Source: an uncultured Eubacteriales bacterium (GTDB lineage: Bacteria > Bacillota > Clostridia > Christensenellales > Aristaeellaceae). From it: DNA of 64,000 nt. How positions within the stretch are numbered: the stretch's first letter is position 1; the number at the start of each line of letters is the position of its first letter. The DNA lies in the NCBI GenBank assembly GCA_944349855.1, contig CALVNS010000002.1, positions 44,230-108,229 on the forward strand, read 5' to 3'. This document shows positions 11,746 through 45,455 of the stretch, in pieces. The position numbers were made by a program, and so were the translations under genes. Below the pieces are notes generated by a model. It made no database searches. It was not told where the DNA came from and saw only the letters and a program-made list of their open reading frames with translations.

Positions 11746-12414
11746 TTATCCGTTTCCATCGGCTGGACAGTAGGTATGCAGCGCCTCGCCGGTCATGGGG
11801 TCGAAGTATCCCCCGTAATAGCCGAGCGTCAGGTCTCCCCGCAGCAAGAAGTCGACCGTATACAGCGGTGGATCGGCAAAGGCGCCGTCTTCGCGCACGA
11901 TGCGCCAGGGACCGTCCTCTCCGCCGCCGCTCTCCACATAGCGCACGCATCCATAGGGCGCGTCGTACAGGTCCTCCGGCTTCACGCCATAGCGCTGCGC
12001 AAGCACCTCGCGCGCGATCTCGCGCACCGTCAGCGCACTCAGGTCCTGCGCACGCGGGATGCCGAAATTGCCGCCGTTTTCGGCTGCGTAGTCGACGACG
12101 CTGCGCTGCAGGTAGAACGCCTCCGCGTCGTCGGCGCGCATGACCTCGCCCGTCTGCCCGTCCAGCTCCACGGCATAGGAGAGCCCGCTGCGCGAAAACA
12201 CGACGCGCCATATCCGACGGTAGGGGGCGCTCGCTTCACTCAGGAGGCGCGCAGACACGCCGTAGGCCATGATCGACTCCTCCGTCTCGCCGCAGGCGCT
12301 CTGAAAATAGGTCTGCGCCAGCGACATGGCCTGCGCGCCGTCGATCTGCGCGCACACATGCGCAGGCAGCGCCAGCATCAGGGCCGCCAACAGTGCGCAC
12401 AATCCGTTTTTCAT
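11746..12414 (-). CDS. Exported protein with two PepSY-like repeats
   Basis: 222 residues. The signal peptide MKNGLCALLAALMLALPAHVCA ends near residue 22 with an AxA-like site. Two similar modules follow: WRVVFSRSGLSYAVELDGQTGEVM and YTVDFLLRGDLTLGYYGGYFDPMTGEAL. Each is a strand pair ending in the D/P-x-TGE turn typical of PepSY-like domains. The last residues (PADGNG) and the segment VREIAREVLAQRYGV resemble the C-terminus of the M56 protein 0.8 kb to the right, which ends PEDGNG. PepSY-like domains usually inhibit or chaperone proteases. The role here is inferred. It diverges from the XRE regulator. Confidence 0.7.
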   Translation of the reverse strand: MKNGLCALLAALMLALPAHVCAQIDGAQAMSLAQTYFQSACGETEESIMAYGVSARLLSEASAPYRRIWRVVFSRSGLSYAVELDGQTGEVMRADDAEAFYLQRSVVDYAAENGGNFGIPRAQDLSALTVREIAREVLAQRYGVKPEDLYDAPYGCVRYVESGGGEDGPWRIVREDGAFADPPLYTVDFLLRGDLTLGYYGGYFDPMTGEALHTYCPADGNG

Positions 12415-12495
12415 GGTCTTCTCCCCCTCGACGGTGAAGTCCGCCGCCCTTTGCCGGGCGCGGCTCAGGTTGAGTCATGCACAACAATCGCGCCA

Positions 12496-12525
12496 TTGCA
12501 TTCATGAGCACACCCATGATATCAT
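12496..12525 (+). promoter_or_regulatory. Promoter of the XRE regulator
   Basis: TTGCAT, 18-base spacer, TATCAT, about 40 bases before the start. Confidence 0.5.
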
Positions 12526-12565
12526 CAAAGCGGATCGATCCAAAATACATACGCGGGAGGTCGCT

Positions 12566-13198
12566 ATGATGCACCTGGCGGAAAATTTAAAGAAGCATCG
12601 CAAGCTGAAAAATCTGACGCAGGAGGATGTGGCGGAATATTTGGGGATTACGCCGCAGAGCGTGTCCAAATGGGAGCGTGAGGAGTCCTACCCGGATATC
12701 ACGCTTCTGCCCGCATTGGCCAATCTCTTTGAGACGAGCATCGACCTGTTGGTCGGAATGGATGCCATTCGCGCGGAAGAGACGCGATACAACATTCACA
12801 GAAAGGCCATCGCCTACCAGCGAAGGGGCGATTACGACCTGGCGGAAAGGACCTATCGCGATGCGCTGCTGATCTATCCCAACAAGCCGGGCATGATTCT
12901 GGGCCTTGCAGGCACGCTTGCGCTCAAGGGCAGCACGCACGAGGCGATTGAGCTCATGGAAAGGGGCTTGCCCATATCGCTCAACGAAAGGCAAAAATCC
13001 ACCATGCGGGCGGCGCTGTGCTTTCTGTACCTGAAGGCCGGATATGAGACGAAGGCCAACAGGCTGGCCGCGGAGCTTCCACATGCGAGAGAAAGCCGCG
13101 AAGTCATCCAGCCGCTCATCCAGCAGGGGCTATGCGAAGCGGAAATCAACGAAAACATAGAGCGGATTCTGCTTGGCGACGGCAAGGAGATCTGGTAA
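12566..13198 (+). CDS. XRE-family regulator with TPR-like C-terminus
   Basis: 210 residues. The start MMHLAENLKKHRK follows GGGAGG by five bases; a second ATG is adjacent. Residues 5-62 form the Cro/CI helix-turn-helix (NLTQEDVAEYLGITPQSVSKWEREES, then YPDITLLPALANLFETSIDLLVG), the arrangement seen in many Firmicutes. Residues 75-150 are helical and TPR-like (AYQRRGDYDLAERTYRDALL, GLAGTLALKGSTHEAIELME). TPR-fused XRE proteins often respond to peptides or partner proteins. The target is not obvious; the PepSY gene and the M56 locus are its flanking neighbours. Confidence 0.85.
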   Translation: MMHLAENLKKHRKLKNLTQEDVAEYLGITPQSVSKWEREESYPDITLLPALANLFETSIDLLVGMDAIRAEETRYNIHRKAIAYQRRGDYDLAERTYRDALLIYPNKPGMILGLAGTLALKGSTHEAIELMERGLPISLNERQKSTMRAALCFLYLKAGYETKANRLAAELPHARESREVIQPLIQQGLCEAEINENIERILLGDGKEIW

Positions 13199-13242
13199 AA
13201 TCAAGCATGCTCCGATCCCGGGGGCATCGGCGGCCGCCATTT

Positions 13243-15246
13243 TCATCCGTTGCCGTCCTCAGGGCCGCACGCGGCGAGCACTTCGCCCGTGACGGGCTGG
13301 ATGTAGACGCTGTATCCCTGGGTGGGGTCGTCGCCGTATCGCAGGTTGACCTGATAGTACGGCCGGTTGAAGGTGACAATTTCATCGCCGTTACGCACGC
13401 GGGACTGGTAGCTGCCGTCCTCGCCGACCGTGATGAAGTAGACGCCGTCCGGCTCGGCCGGCTCCAGTCCGCCCTCATCCAGCCCCCACCGCTCCGCGAC
13501 GGCCCGGCGCGCGATGTCGGTCGCCTCCCGGGCGGAGATGTCGCCCTCTCTGGGCACGCCATGATCCCCGCCCCACGCCTCGGCCCGCCGCTCGAACATC
13601 CATGTCTCTTCGCTGCGGATCGCCTCGGACGACAGCAGCAGCTCAAACGCCCGGGGCAGCGATTTTTGCACGCTGGCCACGAACGCCTCCCCCACCTTCA
13701 CACTCCAGACCAGGACAAAGCCCGTCTCATTTCCCGCCTGTACGTGGTACCAATCCCCGACGCGGCCCCACAGCGTCACCTCCGTCCCGGCGCTGAGCAG
13801 GCCGATCGCCTGCGCGTCATCCCGCGCCTGCGCCAGCAGGAAGGCCTGCGTCGTGACCCGGCCGCGGGGCAACGATGCCGCTTGCGCGTTTCTCGGGCCC
13901 GTCGCTCCCATCAGGTCGCTCAGCGGCACGTAGCCATATACCGCTCCATTGCCAAAAGAGCCGTAGGCCCAATCCTGCCCCGCATAGATGCGCTCCGCAT
14001 GAAACGGCGCGCCATCGTAATAAACCGCCAACGGCGTTTCCCACAGGCTCGCATCCGGCTGCGCGCAAAGCCGCGTGCCCACGCCATGCGTGCCGGAAAC
14101 GCTCACCGCGACGCCATAGGGGATCGCCTCTTGCGACGCCTGCGTCGCCATGGGCGCAGCCGCATCCGTCGCCACGGGCGTAGCCGCATCCGTCGCCATG
14201 GGCGTCAATGCCGCCCGCGCCGTCTCCTCCTCCGGCTCCAGCGCCAGCGCCATGCCCATGCCCAGCGTCAGCGCCACCGTGAGGCATGCGGCCAGCGCGC
14301 CAATGCGCTTCGTTCCCATATCCATGATCGAAAGAATGCGGCGCTTCATGCCGTTCACACCGCCGTAATAGCTCGTGCACAGCACCGAGCGCGCGCCGGA
14401 ATGACGGCGGATGATGCCGATGAGCGTCTCACTGTAGTACTGACGTGCGTCCAGGTCCGTATTGCGCACGACCAGCGCATCGCATGACGCCTCGCAGTGA
14501 TACGCCAGCGCCCGGGCGACGTAGCGCATGAATGGATTGAACCAATGCATCGCGCGCGCCAGCATCAGCAGCATCTTGGCGGGAATGTCGCCCCGGCGCA
14601 GGTGATACAGCTCGTGCAGGAGCACCAGCTCCAGCGCACGGCCGGTCAGCGCTGTATACGGCAGGAGGATGACGGGCCTGAACACGCCCACGAGCATGGG
14701 ACTGGCCACCGCCGGGCACCGTCGCAGGCGCACACGATGGCGCACGCCCGCATGCGCCTTCGCGCGTGTCAGGGCGTCCAGCGGCTCCTTCTCTCCGATC
14801 GGACGGCTCCAGCGGCGCACGGTGCGCACGAAGCGCACATGGACGGCCAGCGATGCGGCCAGCCACGCGGTTGCGCCCAACATCCATACGGCGAACGCCG
14901 CCTGTACGGGAGAAAATGCGAAGCGCGCATCCGCCTGAAGGGCTTGCTCCCCGCCGTCTTGCGCGCCGGCGATGTCCTGCCCCTGCGCCGGCACGCCGCC
15001 GTCCTGCTGCGCGGGTGCGACCAGGCGAACCTCCCAGTCAGGGGCTGGCAGCGCCACCGTCACCGCGGCGGGGAAAGCGCCGGGACGAACCGGCACGGCA
15101 AAGCCCACCACCACCACCAGCCACAGCGCATACAGACAGCGCGGACTGTAGCGGCGCTCAAGCAGCGGCGTGAGCGCCAGCAGCAGGCACGAAAGAACCG
15201 TCATCGTAAGCGTGCACTCCAGGAGGTTCAGCAGGAACCCCTCCAT
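13243..15246 (-). CDS. BlaR1/M56-type membrane protease sensor with SH3-like and PepSY-like domains
   Basis: 667 residues. Hydrophobic helices lie near 5-25, 38-58, 115-137 and 314-334. The M56 zinc protease motif is HELYH (H211, E212, H215), with EASCD at 252-256 as the further ligand region. After the last helix comes a threonine/alanine linker of tandem repeats (ATDAATPVATDAA). It is followed by two SH3b-like modules (AVYYDGAPFHAERIY..., SAGTEVTLWGRVGDWYHVQ) and a PepSY-like module ending PVTGEVLAACGPEDGNG. BlaR1 proper ends in a penicillin-binding domain, which is absent. By analogy the protease should cleave the BlaI-type repressor on an envelope signal. It starts three bases after blaI. 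Confidence 0.85.
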   Translation of the reverse strand: MEGFLLNLLECTLTMTVLSCLLLALTPLLERRYSPRCLYALWLVVVVGFAVPVRPGAFPAAVTVALPAPDWEVRLVAPAQQDGGVPAQGQDIAGAQDGGEQALQADARFAFSPVQAAFAVWMLGATAWLAASLAVHVRFVRTVRRWSRPIGEKEPLDALTRAKAHAGVRHRVRLRRCPAVASPMLVGVFRPVILLPYTALTGRALELVLLHELYHLRRGDIPAKMLLMLARAMHWFNPFMRYVARALAYHCEASCDALVVRNTDLDARQYYSETLIGIIRRHSGARSVLCTSYYGGVNGMKRRILSIMDMGTKRIGALAACLTVALTLGMGMALALEPEEETARAALTPMATDAATPVATDAAAPMATQASQEAIPYGVAVSVSGTHGVGTRLCAQPDASLWETPLAVYYDGAPFHAERIYAGQDWAYGSFGNGAVYGYVPLSDLMGATGPRNAQAASLPRGRVTTQAFLLAQARDDAQAIGLLSAGTEVTLWGRVGDWYHVQAGNETGFVLVWSVKVGEAFVASVQKSLPRAFELLLSSEAIRSEETWMFERRAEAWGGDHGVPREGDISAREATDIARRAVAERWGLDEGGLEPAEPDGVYFITVGEDGSYQSRVRNGDEIVTFNRPYYQVNLRYGDDPTQGYSVYIQPVTGEVLAACGPEDGNG
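14138..14209. repeat. Three 24-base tandem repeats encoding the M56 linker
   Basis: Units at 14138-14161, 14162-14185 and 14186-14209 differ by a few bases and encode the MATDAAxP-type linker between the membrane part and the extracellular domains. Repeat number could vary between strains. Confidence 0.8.
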
Positions 15247-15249
15247 ATG

Positions 15250-15633
15250 TCACCGCCCCTTTTCTCTCGCTTCCTTTACAAAGCGCGCCAGCTCGTCCAG
15301 GTCGTCCTGCGTCAGTTCGTCCCGTCGCAGCGCGCCGATCAGGCTGGCAACGCTGTTGTTGTGATAGCGGCTGACAAACGACTCCGTCTCCATGCGCAGA
15401 TACGCCTCGCGCGTGATCAGCGGATAAAAGGCGCGCCCGCGCCCCGGCCCCTGCTCGGCCCGCAAAAATCCCCGCTCCGTCAGCCTTCCAAAGAGGGATA
15501 CCACCGTCTGAATCTTCCAGCCGCGCTCACGCCCAAGCCTGTCCATCACCGTGGTCGTCGTCACCGGCGGCTGTGCGTCCCAAATCACCTGCATCACCTG
15601 AAATTCCGCATCCGGCAATCTCTTGGACTTCAT
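15250..15633 (-). CDS. BlaI/MecI/CopY-family repressor
   Basis: 127 residues. The winged helix is MKSKRLPDAEFQVMQVIWDA, TTTTVMDRLGRERGWKIQTVVSLFGRL, then the wing GFLRAEQGPGRGRAFYPLI, very close to BlaI. The C-terminal half is helical for dimerisation. The protease-sensitive site of BlaI (Asn-Phe) is not obvious. It leads a two-gene operon with the M56 sensor and has dyads in its own promoter, so autorepression relieved by the protease is likely. No beta-lactamase or PBP gene is in the window, so the regulated target may be the divergent esterase or lie elsewhere. Confidence 0.92.
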   Translation of the reverse strand: MKSKRLPDAEFQVMQVIWDAQPPVTTTTVMDRLGRERGWKIQTVVSLFGRLTERGFLRAEQGPGRGRAFYPLITREAYLRMETESFVSRYHNNSVASLIGALRRDELTQDDLDELARFVKEAREKGR

Positions 15634-15653: not shown

Positions 15654-15678
15654 AAGACAATATGTCTTATATAGACAT
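15654..15678. promoter_or_regulatory. BlaI-type operator: two overlapping dyads
   Basis: AAGACA-ATA-TGTCTT at 15654-15668 overlaps ATGTCT-TATAT-AGACAT at 15662-15678. The GACA/TGTC half-sites resemble the TACAnnTGTA operators of BlaI/MecI. They cover the start region of the blaI promoter. A further AGACAT half-site lies at 15752-15757 in the divergent leader. Confidence 0.7.
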
Positions 15679-15705
15679 GTTACCCTCTCCCGCCTCGTTT
15701 GTCAA
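15677..15705 (-). promoter_or_regulatory. Promoter of blaI-M56 operon
   Basis: Read leftward: TTGACA, 17-base spacer, TAACAT. The -10 touches the operator dyad. Confidence 0.72.
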
Positions 15706-15792: not shown

Positions 15793-16548
15793 ATGCAGGA
15801 GCAGTACTTTCGTGAATATGCCCGCGCGCTCGGGCGGGACATGGAATTCAAGGTGTATGGCCATGCGGGGCGCCCGGTGTTGGCCTTTCCGTCGCAGGAC
15901 GGGCGGTTCTTCGACTTCAAGGACAACGGCATGGTCGACTCCGTTGGGCACCTGATTGAAGCGGGACGCGCGCAGATCTTCTGCTGCGACTCCATCGACC
16001 GGGAGACGTGGTCGGCGACATGGCGCGAGCCGCGCGCGCGCCTGGAGCAGCACGAGCGTTGGTTCGCCTACGTCACGGACGAGCTCGTCCCGCGCATATG
16101 GGAGATCAGCCGCGCGGCGGGCGACGGCCTGGACCGCGGCGGCATCGTGACGACGGGCTGCTCGATGGGCGCGTTTCACGCGGCCAACTTTTTCTTCCGC
16201 CGGCCGGAGCTGTTTGGCGGAGTGATCGGGCTGTCGGGCCTGTACGACGCGCACTACTTCTTCGGCGACGCCTTCGACGAGCTGGCGTATCTGAATTCGC
16301 CGGTGGACTCACTTGCCAACATGCCGGCGGATCATCCCTACATCGCGCTGTACAACGCGCGGCAGATTGTTCTGTGCGTGGGGCAAGGGGCATGGGAGCA
16401 CGAGATGCTGCCCTCCAACCGCCGGCTCGCGGAGATCTTCCGGGAGAAGGGCATCCACGGCTGGGTCGATTTTTGGGGCTATGACGTCGCGCATGACTGG
16501 CCGTGGTGGCGCCGTCAGCTGCCCTATTTTCTGGAGCAGATGGTCTGA
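15793..16548 (+). CDS. Alpha/beta-hydrolase esterase (esterase D-like)
   Basis: 251 residues. The nucleophile elbow is TTGCSMGAFHA (S124), and GYDVAHDW near the C-terminus supplies a His. HAGRPVLAFPSQDGRFFDF is the opening strand region of the putative esterase family related to S-formylglutathione hydrolase/esterase D and antigen 85. There is no signal peptide, so it should act in the cytoplasm. Its strong promoter faces blaI and carries a half operator, hence possible co-regulation with the M56/BlaI switch. The substrate is unknown. It converges on the next gene with a gap of three bases and no terminator. Confidence 0.82.
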   Translation: MQEQYFREYARALGRDMEFKVYGHAGRPVLAFPSQDGRFFDFKDNGMVDSVGHLIEAGRAQIFCCDSIDRETWSATWREPRARLEQHERWFAYVTDELVPRIWEISRAAGDGLDRGGIVTTGCSMGAFHAANFFFRRPELFGGVIGLSGLYDAHYFFGDAFDELAYLNSPVDSLANMPADHPYIALYNARQIVLCVGQGAWEHEMLPSNRRLAEIFREKGIHGWVDFWGYDVAHDWPWWRRQLPYFLEQMV

Positions 16549-44582: not shown

Positions 44583-45455
44583 CTATGCGCACGCGCACAC
44601 GGTTTGGGCCTCCTGGCTTTTTACCTGCACGGTTCCCGTTCCTTCCTGGATATCCCGGATGATCTCGCCAACCTCCGGCACGATGATATGGCTGCCTGGC
44701 AGAGGATTTTTGATGCTGAGCACCGGCGTTGTAATCCTCGCCTCCACCTTGCTGCGCTCAAAGGCCAAATCGCATTCGATCATCTCGCAATCCACAAGCT
44801 TTAATCCCTTGCAGTAGCACAGGGGCTGCGTCCCGACAATCTTGCAATGTTCAAACGTGACATTCTCGCAGTACCAGGCCAGATACTCGCCTTTTACAAC
44901 GCTGTTGCGAACAGTGACGTTTTTGGCATGCCAGAAGGCATCCTTGGTGTCAAAGGTGCAGTTTTCAAACACAGAATCTTCAATGTACTGAAAAGAATAC
45001 TTCCCCTTCATGCGCACATCTGTAAAGTGCAGGCCAGAAGAGCGCATCATGAAGTATTCGCTCTCGACGTCGCAATCCTCCATTTCCACATTGCGGACGG
45101 ACCAGCCAAACTCCGGAGAGACCACGTCGCAGCCCGTCATCTTGACATCAGCACATTCCCGCAGGGCCTTGATGCCATGCAGTTGGGTGTTTTCAATGAC
45201 AATATGGTCGGAATACCACAGCGCTGCCCGGCAAAGTTCGGTCATCCGTGAATCTCGGATGGCAAGGCCGTGATCGTGCCAGAAGGGGTATCGCAGGTTC
45301 AAAAAGCAGTGCTCCACCTGCACATCTTTACATTCTTTTAAAGCGCTTTCGCCATCGGCCGGGCCGTCAAAGAAGCAATTTTTTACCAAAATATCGTCGC
45401 TGCCATAAAGGGCGCGCTCCGCATCAAAGGTCTGATCGTGAATGATCCTCATCAT
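44583..45455 (-). CDS. DUF3737-family beta-helix protein
   Basis: 290 residues from MMRIIHDQTFDAERALYG. An ATG six codons upstream is rejected because its codons contain the GGGAGG ribosome site. Repeated rungs such as VKNCFFDG, VEHCFLNLRYPFW, VKMTGCDVVSPEFGW, VFENCTFDTKDAFWH and VTFEHCKIVGTQPLC show a right-handed parallel beta-helix. DUF3737 has no known activity; the fold suggests carbohydrate or surface binding. Cytoplasmic, no signal. Confidence 0.88.
   Translation of the reverse strand: MMRIIHDQTFDAERALYGSDDILVKNCFFDGPADGESALKECKDVQVEHCFLNLRYPFWHDHGLAIRDSRMTELCRAALWYSDHIVIENTQLHGIKALRECADVKMTGCDVVSPEFGWSVRNVEMEDCDVESEYFMMRSSGLHFTDVRMKGKYSFQYIEDSVFENCTFDTKDAFWHAKNVTVRNSVVKGEYLAWYCENVTFEHCKIVGTQPLCYCKGLKLVDCEMIECDLAFERSKVEARITTPVLSIKNPLPGSHIIVPEVGEIIRDIQEGTGTVQVKSQEAQTVCACA

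Follow-up and report, generated by a model that had tools for sequence, protein, structure and literature searches.

A BlaI/BlaR1-type operon with an SH3-SH3-PepSY sensor tail in uncultured gut Clostridia: a candidate envelope-sensing proteolytic switch

The BlaI/BlaR1 pair is best known as an antibiotic-resistance switch, and the locus described here raises the question of what such a pair responds to when it appears to be wired to a wall-type sensor and to an operator of its own. The stretch of DNA that was analysed (the window, 64,000 nucleotides) comes from an uncultured member of the gut Clostridia whose own genome is estimated to be 93% complete. On its minus strand, an open reading frame of 667 aa (13243..15246), characterised by Pfam, AlphaFold and Foldseek, encodes an M56 (BlaR1-type) membrane protease with an SH3-SH3-PepSY tail. 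A sequence-only reading had taken this protein for an intact protease, paired with BlaI, in which these modules stand in place of a penicillin-binding domain. The evidence brought to bear on that reading is entirely computational and is drawn from assemblies, many of which are incomplete.

Protease, repressor and sensor tail

The M56 domain spans residues 7-306 (14329..15228, minus strand; Pfam PF05569, Peptidase_M56, E 1.3e-45) and matches BlaR1 cryo-EM structures. Alignment of M56 proteins placed the HELYH zinc motif at residues 211-215 (14602..14616, minus strand) and the third zinc ligand at Glu252 (14491-14493, minus strand); H211, E212, H215 and E252 are invariant in 20/20 aligned M56 proteins, and the protease motif is intact, as had been claimed. 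AlphaFold modelled the whole sensor with moderate confidence (alignment of 16 proteins; mean pLDDT 70, pTM 0.45), and in Foldseek this model matched the BlaR1 cryo-EM structures (best E 8.7e-7), with the helices placed as in BlaR1. The NCBIfam model blaR1_generic gave 98.8 bits of its 400-bit cut-off, and the match stops at residue 310.

According to the available text of PMC9834060, S. aureus BlaR1 cleaves itself at Ser283/Phe284 and its BlaI is cut at Asn101/Phe102. The first of these bonds aligns with Ser292|Tyr293 of the window protein (14368..14373, minus strand), the predicted self-cleavage bond, and the P1′ residue at this position is Phe in 18 and Tyr in 2 of the 20 aligned M56 proteins. 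The extracellular loop at residues 54-108 is of low complexity and predicted to be disordered, whereas the equivalent loop of S. aureus BlaR1 is inserted in the sensor (PMC9834060); the known activation route may therefore not carry over.

The BlaI/MecI-type repressor (127 aa; 15250..15633, minus strand) was identified by Pfam Penicillinase_R (E 4.5e-25, 88.7 bits against a cut-off of 22.6) and by matches to MecI and BlaI structures in the PDB, and its gene lies directly before that of the sensor, 3 bases away. The bond that is cut in S. aureus BlaI is not kept: Asn|Phe is replaced by Gly|Ala or Ala|Leu, depending on the alignment, as one residue is missing near the place of cleavage and the reading follows the position of the gap. 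In the same family, several BlaI proteins paired with M56 proteins of other types retain the Asn, with Met or Leu as the next residue. Because the cleavage bond is not kept, substrate recognition must differ; judged from the residues, the protease seems ready to cut, and the corresponding site of the repressor is changed.

The tail includes a repeat linker with a 24-base unit (14143..14205, minus strand; 2.6 copies with 92% matches in TRF). The first SH3b-like module, at residues ~375-447 (13906..14124, minus strand), has no Pfam match in the window protein and was recognised from AlphaFold strands, tandem SH3 matches in Foldseek and the alignment of relatives, while the second, at residues ~455-516 (13699..13884, minus strand), was found by AlphaFold, Foldseek and Pfam SH3_3 at residues 469-516 (E 3e-6; 27.7 bits, just above the cut-off of 27). 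Residues ~572-667 (13246..13533, minus strand) make up a PepSY-like module, recognised by its similarity to the partner protein described below and by a weak Pfam PepSY match at residues 627-658 (E 0.0097; 16.6 bits, below the cut-off of 24). Among relatives, Pfam at E<=0.01 found PepSY in 6/20 (best E 1.9e-7) and SH3_3 in 7/20. The linker, the two SH3b-like modules and the PepSY-like end were all recovered as the sequence-only reading had described them, the PepSY label being the weakest part of that description.

A domain search and a structure prediction of the tail, both of which the earlier reading had suggested, returned tandem SH3 folds together with the weak PepSY match. The AlphaFold model of the tail alone (18 sequences; pLDDT 77.9, pTM 0.55) matched SH3 pairs of NlpC/P60 hydrolases and of a phage endolysin in Foldseek (E 4e-6 to 2e-4), with TM-scores by query of 0.21-0.24, low values being expected for flexible pairs. 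Eukaryotic SH3 and Tudor pairs ranked next, a single SH3 (2krs) reached a TM of 0.73 by target (E 0.03), and no PepSY structure appeared by title among the best 50 tail fold matches. The two modules thus resemble the SH3b pairs of NlpC/P60 hydrolases and endolysin in predicted fold but are here fused to a membrane signalling protease, with no hydrolase domain. Likewise, the end of the tail shares weak PepSY profile matches and a helix-sheet topology with secreted PepSY/YPEB proteins, from which it differs in its fusion to SH3b and M56 parts, its Gly-Asn-Gly (GNG) end and its score under the Pfam cut-off.

No Transpeptidase or beta-lactamase profile matched the sensor or the relatives scanned, a PDB sequence search gave no penicillin-binding match beyond the M56 part of the sensor, and no penicillin-binding fold stood among the listed fold matches of the tail. 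A known penicillin-binding sensor was thus not found by profile, sequence or fold, in agreement with the earlier reading, and the protein is BlaR1-like in anatomy but not a BlaR1 beta-lactam sensor. In other proteins, SH3b modules bind the cell wall, and the signal here is probably the state of the wall rather than penicillin. An indirect response to beta-lactams, in which the SH3b modules would bind wall fragments released or altered when wall synthesis is blocked, would agree with the BlaI/BlaR1 ancestry of the pair and with the title of a paper, 'A Peptidoglycan Fragment Triggers beta-lactam Resistance in Bacillus licheniformis' (PMC3305447). We nevertheless consider such a response improbable, given the missing penicillin-binding sensor and the finding that no beta-lactamase or penicillin-binding gene lies beside either BlaI/M56 pair of the genome (judged by eye, with the neighbours partly profile-scanned).

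Distribution, sensor exchange and relation to known systems

In a survey of the family that scored up to 6 candidate places per genome, 131/200 genomes had some match to the sensor. The window was compared with the 19 best-scoring M56 places and one tail-only place, and the SH3-SH3-PepSY tail was found in 17 M56 loci of 17 genomes, window included. Besides the window, 11/19 places were assigned by phmmer with the window's own tail and 5 by multiple alignment alone (L042, L044, L049, L051 and L052); L053, L054 and L055 carry other tails. BlaI lies directly upstream, in the same order as in the window, in 17/17 SH3-type loci. With 17 occurrences in as many genomes, the layout is not due to chance, and the search for the same architecture next to BlaI, another suggestion of the sequence-only reading, has yielded 17 loci of one family with BlaI adjoining each. 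The tail was also found without M56, in proteins of two genomes, and three M56 proteins of the family (L092, L089 and L002) gave no SH3 or PepSY match.

An order-wide search with the full-length profile (297 genomes, some of them of the family; up to 3 candidates scored per genome, so that rare exceptions could be missed) returned many M56 proteins outside the family. The listed matches outside the family reach no further than position 421 of the 810 in the profile, and the first SH3 module occupies positions ~385-471; consequently, no listed outside-family match covers this module, and a few end in its first half. SH3 or PepSY matches were found in 0/8 M56 proteins scanned from other families. 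Within the order, M56 proteins commonly carry other tails, one of them (L135) having Pfam DUF6034, and the general idea is therefore less new than the earlier reading had stated.

A quick tree built from 81 M56 proteins places the 17 SH3-type proteins together in one supported set of 26 rows, which also includes a few proteins with other tails. Two loci, L044 and L053, are sisters on this tree and have different tails, so that a sensor swap is visible. One locus, L048:5747-9817, encodes an M56 protein of 1356 aa in which the SH3-PepSY sensor region is duplicated in tandem. The second BlaI/M56 pair of the window's own genome (L002) has a tail without a match to any Pfam family at E<=0.01, and its divergent neighbour looks, by eye, like an ECF sigma factor.

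With the BlaR1/BlaI and MecR1/MecI systems of Staphylococcus and Bacillus, the operon shares the M56 HEXXH...E site, the helix placement, the self-cleavage loop, a C-terminal sensor region, a BlaI/MecI-type repressor and a promoter dyad. It differs from them in its SH3-SH3-PepSY sensor, where they have a penicillin-binding domain, in its dyad, which reads AAGACA-N3-TGTCTT instead of TACA-N2-TGTA, and in a BlaI cleavage site that is not kept. Other M56 proteins with non-penicillin tails, such as L135, resemble it in having the M56 core with the sensor exchanged or lost, but the listed matches outside the family show no coverage of an SH3-SH3-PepSY tail. The M. tuberculosis homologue of BlaR1 is described as being without an equivalent sensor in the available text of PMC9834060, and in the accessible part of a review on regulated proteolysis (PMC7593790) M56 appears solely in the form of BlaR1/MecR1, and neither SH3 nor PepSY is mentioned. 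Within the available portions of open-licence full texts, no paper on the M56-SH3-SH3-PepSY architecture was found. The novelty claimed for the layout thus stands within that literature, although M56 proteins with other sensors were already known, and what is new is the SH3-SH3-PepSY form, its operator and its shared C-terminus.

Operator and promoter

A blaI dyad at the promoter, proposed by the earlier reading as a readout, is present near the blaI start as a perfect palindrome, AAGACA-ATA-TGTCTT (15654..15668). This predicted operator is placed upstream of blaI, just after a promoter-like site, TTGACA-17-TAACAT (15677..15705, minus strand; 10/12 in the promoter scan). In the window alone, 0.60 dyads with up to 2 mismatches are expected by chance; as the dyad is not rare by this measure, its weight comes from conservation. 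In the sister species, Candidatus Onthenecus intestinigallinarum (L035; sensor identity 75-78%), the same dyad has different centre bases. A scan of 50 BlaI genes found it, at >=10/12 bases, in 14/17 SH3-type loci versus 1/33 others, some of the 17 being close relatives and hence not independent. A fifteenth SH3-type locus, G037, has a perfect site that lay outside the scan because the ORF call begins upstream of the likely start, giving 15/17; the remaining two (L042 and L047) have no AAGACA-N3-TGTCTT dyad. In G157, G037 and G169, a second copy (10-11/12, by eye) lies just upstream of the dyad, and the second BlaI/M56 pair of the window's own genome has no such dyad (best 6/12). Based on its occurrence in 15/17 SH3-type but 1/33 other BlaI loci, we conclude that the type of operator goes with the type of sensor. 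The operator also offers a ready reporter.

This private operator, co-conserved with the sensor, bears on the altered cleavage site of the repressor. The protease could have stopped cutting BlaI and now process another protein, the shared operon being inherited history, as the loss of the S. aureus Asn|Phe site might suggest; the pairing with BlaI in 17/17 loci, the operator and the conserved self-cleavage loop all speak against this, and we regard it as very improbable. The reading that we retain is one in which BlaI would still be the substrate.

The classical BlaI/CopY operator core is TACA-N2-TGTA (available text of PMC7253601). As a candidate operator it was rejected, the window having no exact site and none with one mismatch at the promoter; allowing one mismatch, there is 1 site in the window, at 45015, versus 3.47 expected by chance.

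Perfect AAGACA-N3-TGTCTT sites number 8 in 20 genomes, of which 6 are at SH3-type blaI; chance would give ~0.06-0.16 per genome, or 1-3 over the 20 genomes, by a hand estimate from base composition. A wider regulon was also considered and rejected: sites with up to 1 mismatch numbered 40 versus 62 for the reversed pattern (18 genomes, one strand), and since they are no commoner than this control, a regulon extending past the operon must be small, if there is one. One perfect site (L187) lies between convergent genes and is probably due to chance, and a single-mismatch site (L060) is inside a gene. Another perfect site (L059:1501-1515; C10:31492-31506 in the window's own genome) ends 36 bases ahead of the probable ATG of an SH3b gene whose product looks secreted. 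Because the sister genome has nothing close to this gene (best match 34%, with a query lacking the presumed first residue) and a scan of the bases preceding it gave no promoter-like site, it is kept as a candidate only: the site hints at a regulon member without reaching significance, and may be due to chance.

Back to back with blaI, a divergent gene at 15793-16548 encodes a putative esterase (PF00756). It has a strong promoter-like site of its own, whose -10 is followed by a lone AAGACA half-site; the sister species has this half-site as well (by eye). In the sister loci with different tails, the operator fit is 9/12 in L053, which has no C-terminal Asn-Gly (NG), versus 10/12 in L044.

The partner protein, the shared C-terminus and the proposed switch

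The partner protein, P0003 (222 aa; 11746..12414, minus strand), ends in GNG (11749-11757) and has a signal-peptide-like start (by eye). It was recognised by its similarity to the end of the sensor (36% identity over 112 aa, E 2e-13 in a single comparison) and has nothing above Pfam cut-offs. In the sister species, the ATG of the partner gene follows the sensor stop by 10 bases. In the window genome, the partner gene and the blaI-sensor operon are separated by an oppositely oriented HTH-TPR gene (12563-13198, plus strand; Pfam), which lies within an 818-base stretch between sensor and partner (12425..13242) that is absent in the sister species, as judged by blastn of the window against L035.

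The sensor, too, ends in Gly-Asn-Gly (13246..13254, minus strand). Counted across 62 sources, namely the window, L002 and 60 retrieved loci, NG stands at the C-terminus of 24/53 closed M56 ORFs versus 9/1360 other ORFs of >=100 aa, a difference with a Fisher p of 5e-30 that ignores relatedness, counts orthologue pairs and includes some spurious 'other' ORFs. By our own reading, two of these nine look spurious and seven are of PepSY or SH3 type. A later sample had NG ends in 6/23 closed tail-like ORFs, including two that the first count had covered; for closed M56 ORFs of the order's other families the number was 0/18. The window's own genome has 12 GNG-stop strings, no more than of the reversed pattern, yet GNG ends only three ORFs >65 aa, namely the sensor, P0003 and the second M56 sensor (L002); none of the remaining nine strings ends an ORF >65 aa. 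The tails of the sensor and L002 are unrelated (BLASTP E 3.7), yet both end in GNG. Two SH3-type loci, L039 and L050, keep the operator and are without NG, so that NG is not essential for the SH3 type.

Two trivial origins of the NG end were considered. A ribosome-site or codon artefact was rejected: the Asn, Gly and stop codons and the downstream bases vary, and selection therefore seems to act on the protein. Inheritance as one clade was partly rejected, as NG occurs in separate parts of the M56 tree with at least 8 changes on the quick tree.

We suggest, tentatively, that GNG may be a recognition signal common to several BlaR1-type sensors of the family and to secreted PepSY proteins, of which one belongs to the operon of the sensor itself in the sister species. 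The secreted protein might then diffuse and occupy the reader of this tag as a decoy or ligand, and the switch might measure the balance between free and membrane-bound forms. If true, this would be a proteolytic circuit with a self-made extracellular regulator. The shared GNG and the co-encoded secreted-looking protein in any case provide a testable handle on the activation of an M56 protease.

The same C-terminus could mean that it is the PepSY end that senses, by binding an extracytoplasmic peptidase or a processed protein through GNG, with the secreted PepSY protein competing for it and the SH3 modules simply anchoring the tail at the wall. The presence of GNG at the exact C-terminus of sensors with unrelated tails and of the partner, its restriction in the window's own genome to these three ORFs, and the occurrence of PepSY-type tails on further proteins of the family, of membrane type or secreted in appearance, are all in its favour, but L039 and L050 have the operator without NG and the PepSY match of the window protein falls under the Pfam cut-off. 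We therefore think it rather unlikely that the PepSY end alone is the sensor.

On balance, we favour an autoregulated proteolytic switch of the BlaI/BlaR1 type whose sensor has been replaced by one for the wall or for a partner protein. The gene order, the catalytic and cleavage-loop residues, the dyad, the predicted fold of the tail and the kinship of the partner are read directly from the sequences; the remainder of the model is argued from them and from BlaR1. BlaI dimers would bind AAGACA-N3-TGTCTT at the promoter and hold down the operon, which comprises blaI, the sensor-protease gene and, in the sister species, that of the secreted PepSY protein. By analogy with BlaR1, the SH3b pair and the PepSY tail would lie outside the membrane, where they would bind a cell-wall component or an envelope protein, and ligand binding would shift the membrane helices and wake the M56 site facing the cytoplasm. 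The protease would then cut itself at Ser292|Tyr293 and cut BlaI near residues 100-102, opening the operon. The secreted PepSY protein, a putative free copy of the sensor end with the same GNG, would feed back on the same ligand or partner. The beta-lactam version may accordingly be one application of a broader system that senses the envelope.

The PepSY part of the tail also occurs at L153, L155, L156 and L160, on proteins whose N-terminus resembles 'RRALDASLSGLQ' (by eye). They may be partners, of a membrane or anti-sigma-like nature, in a different signalling output.
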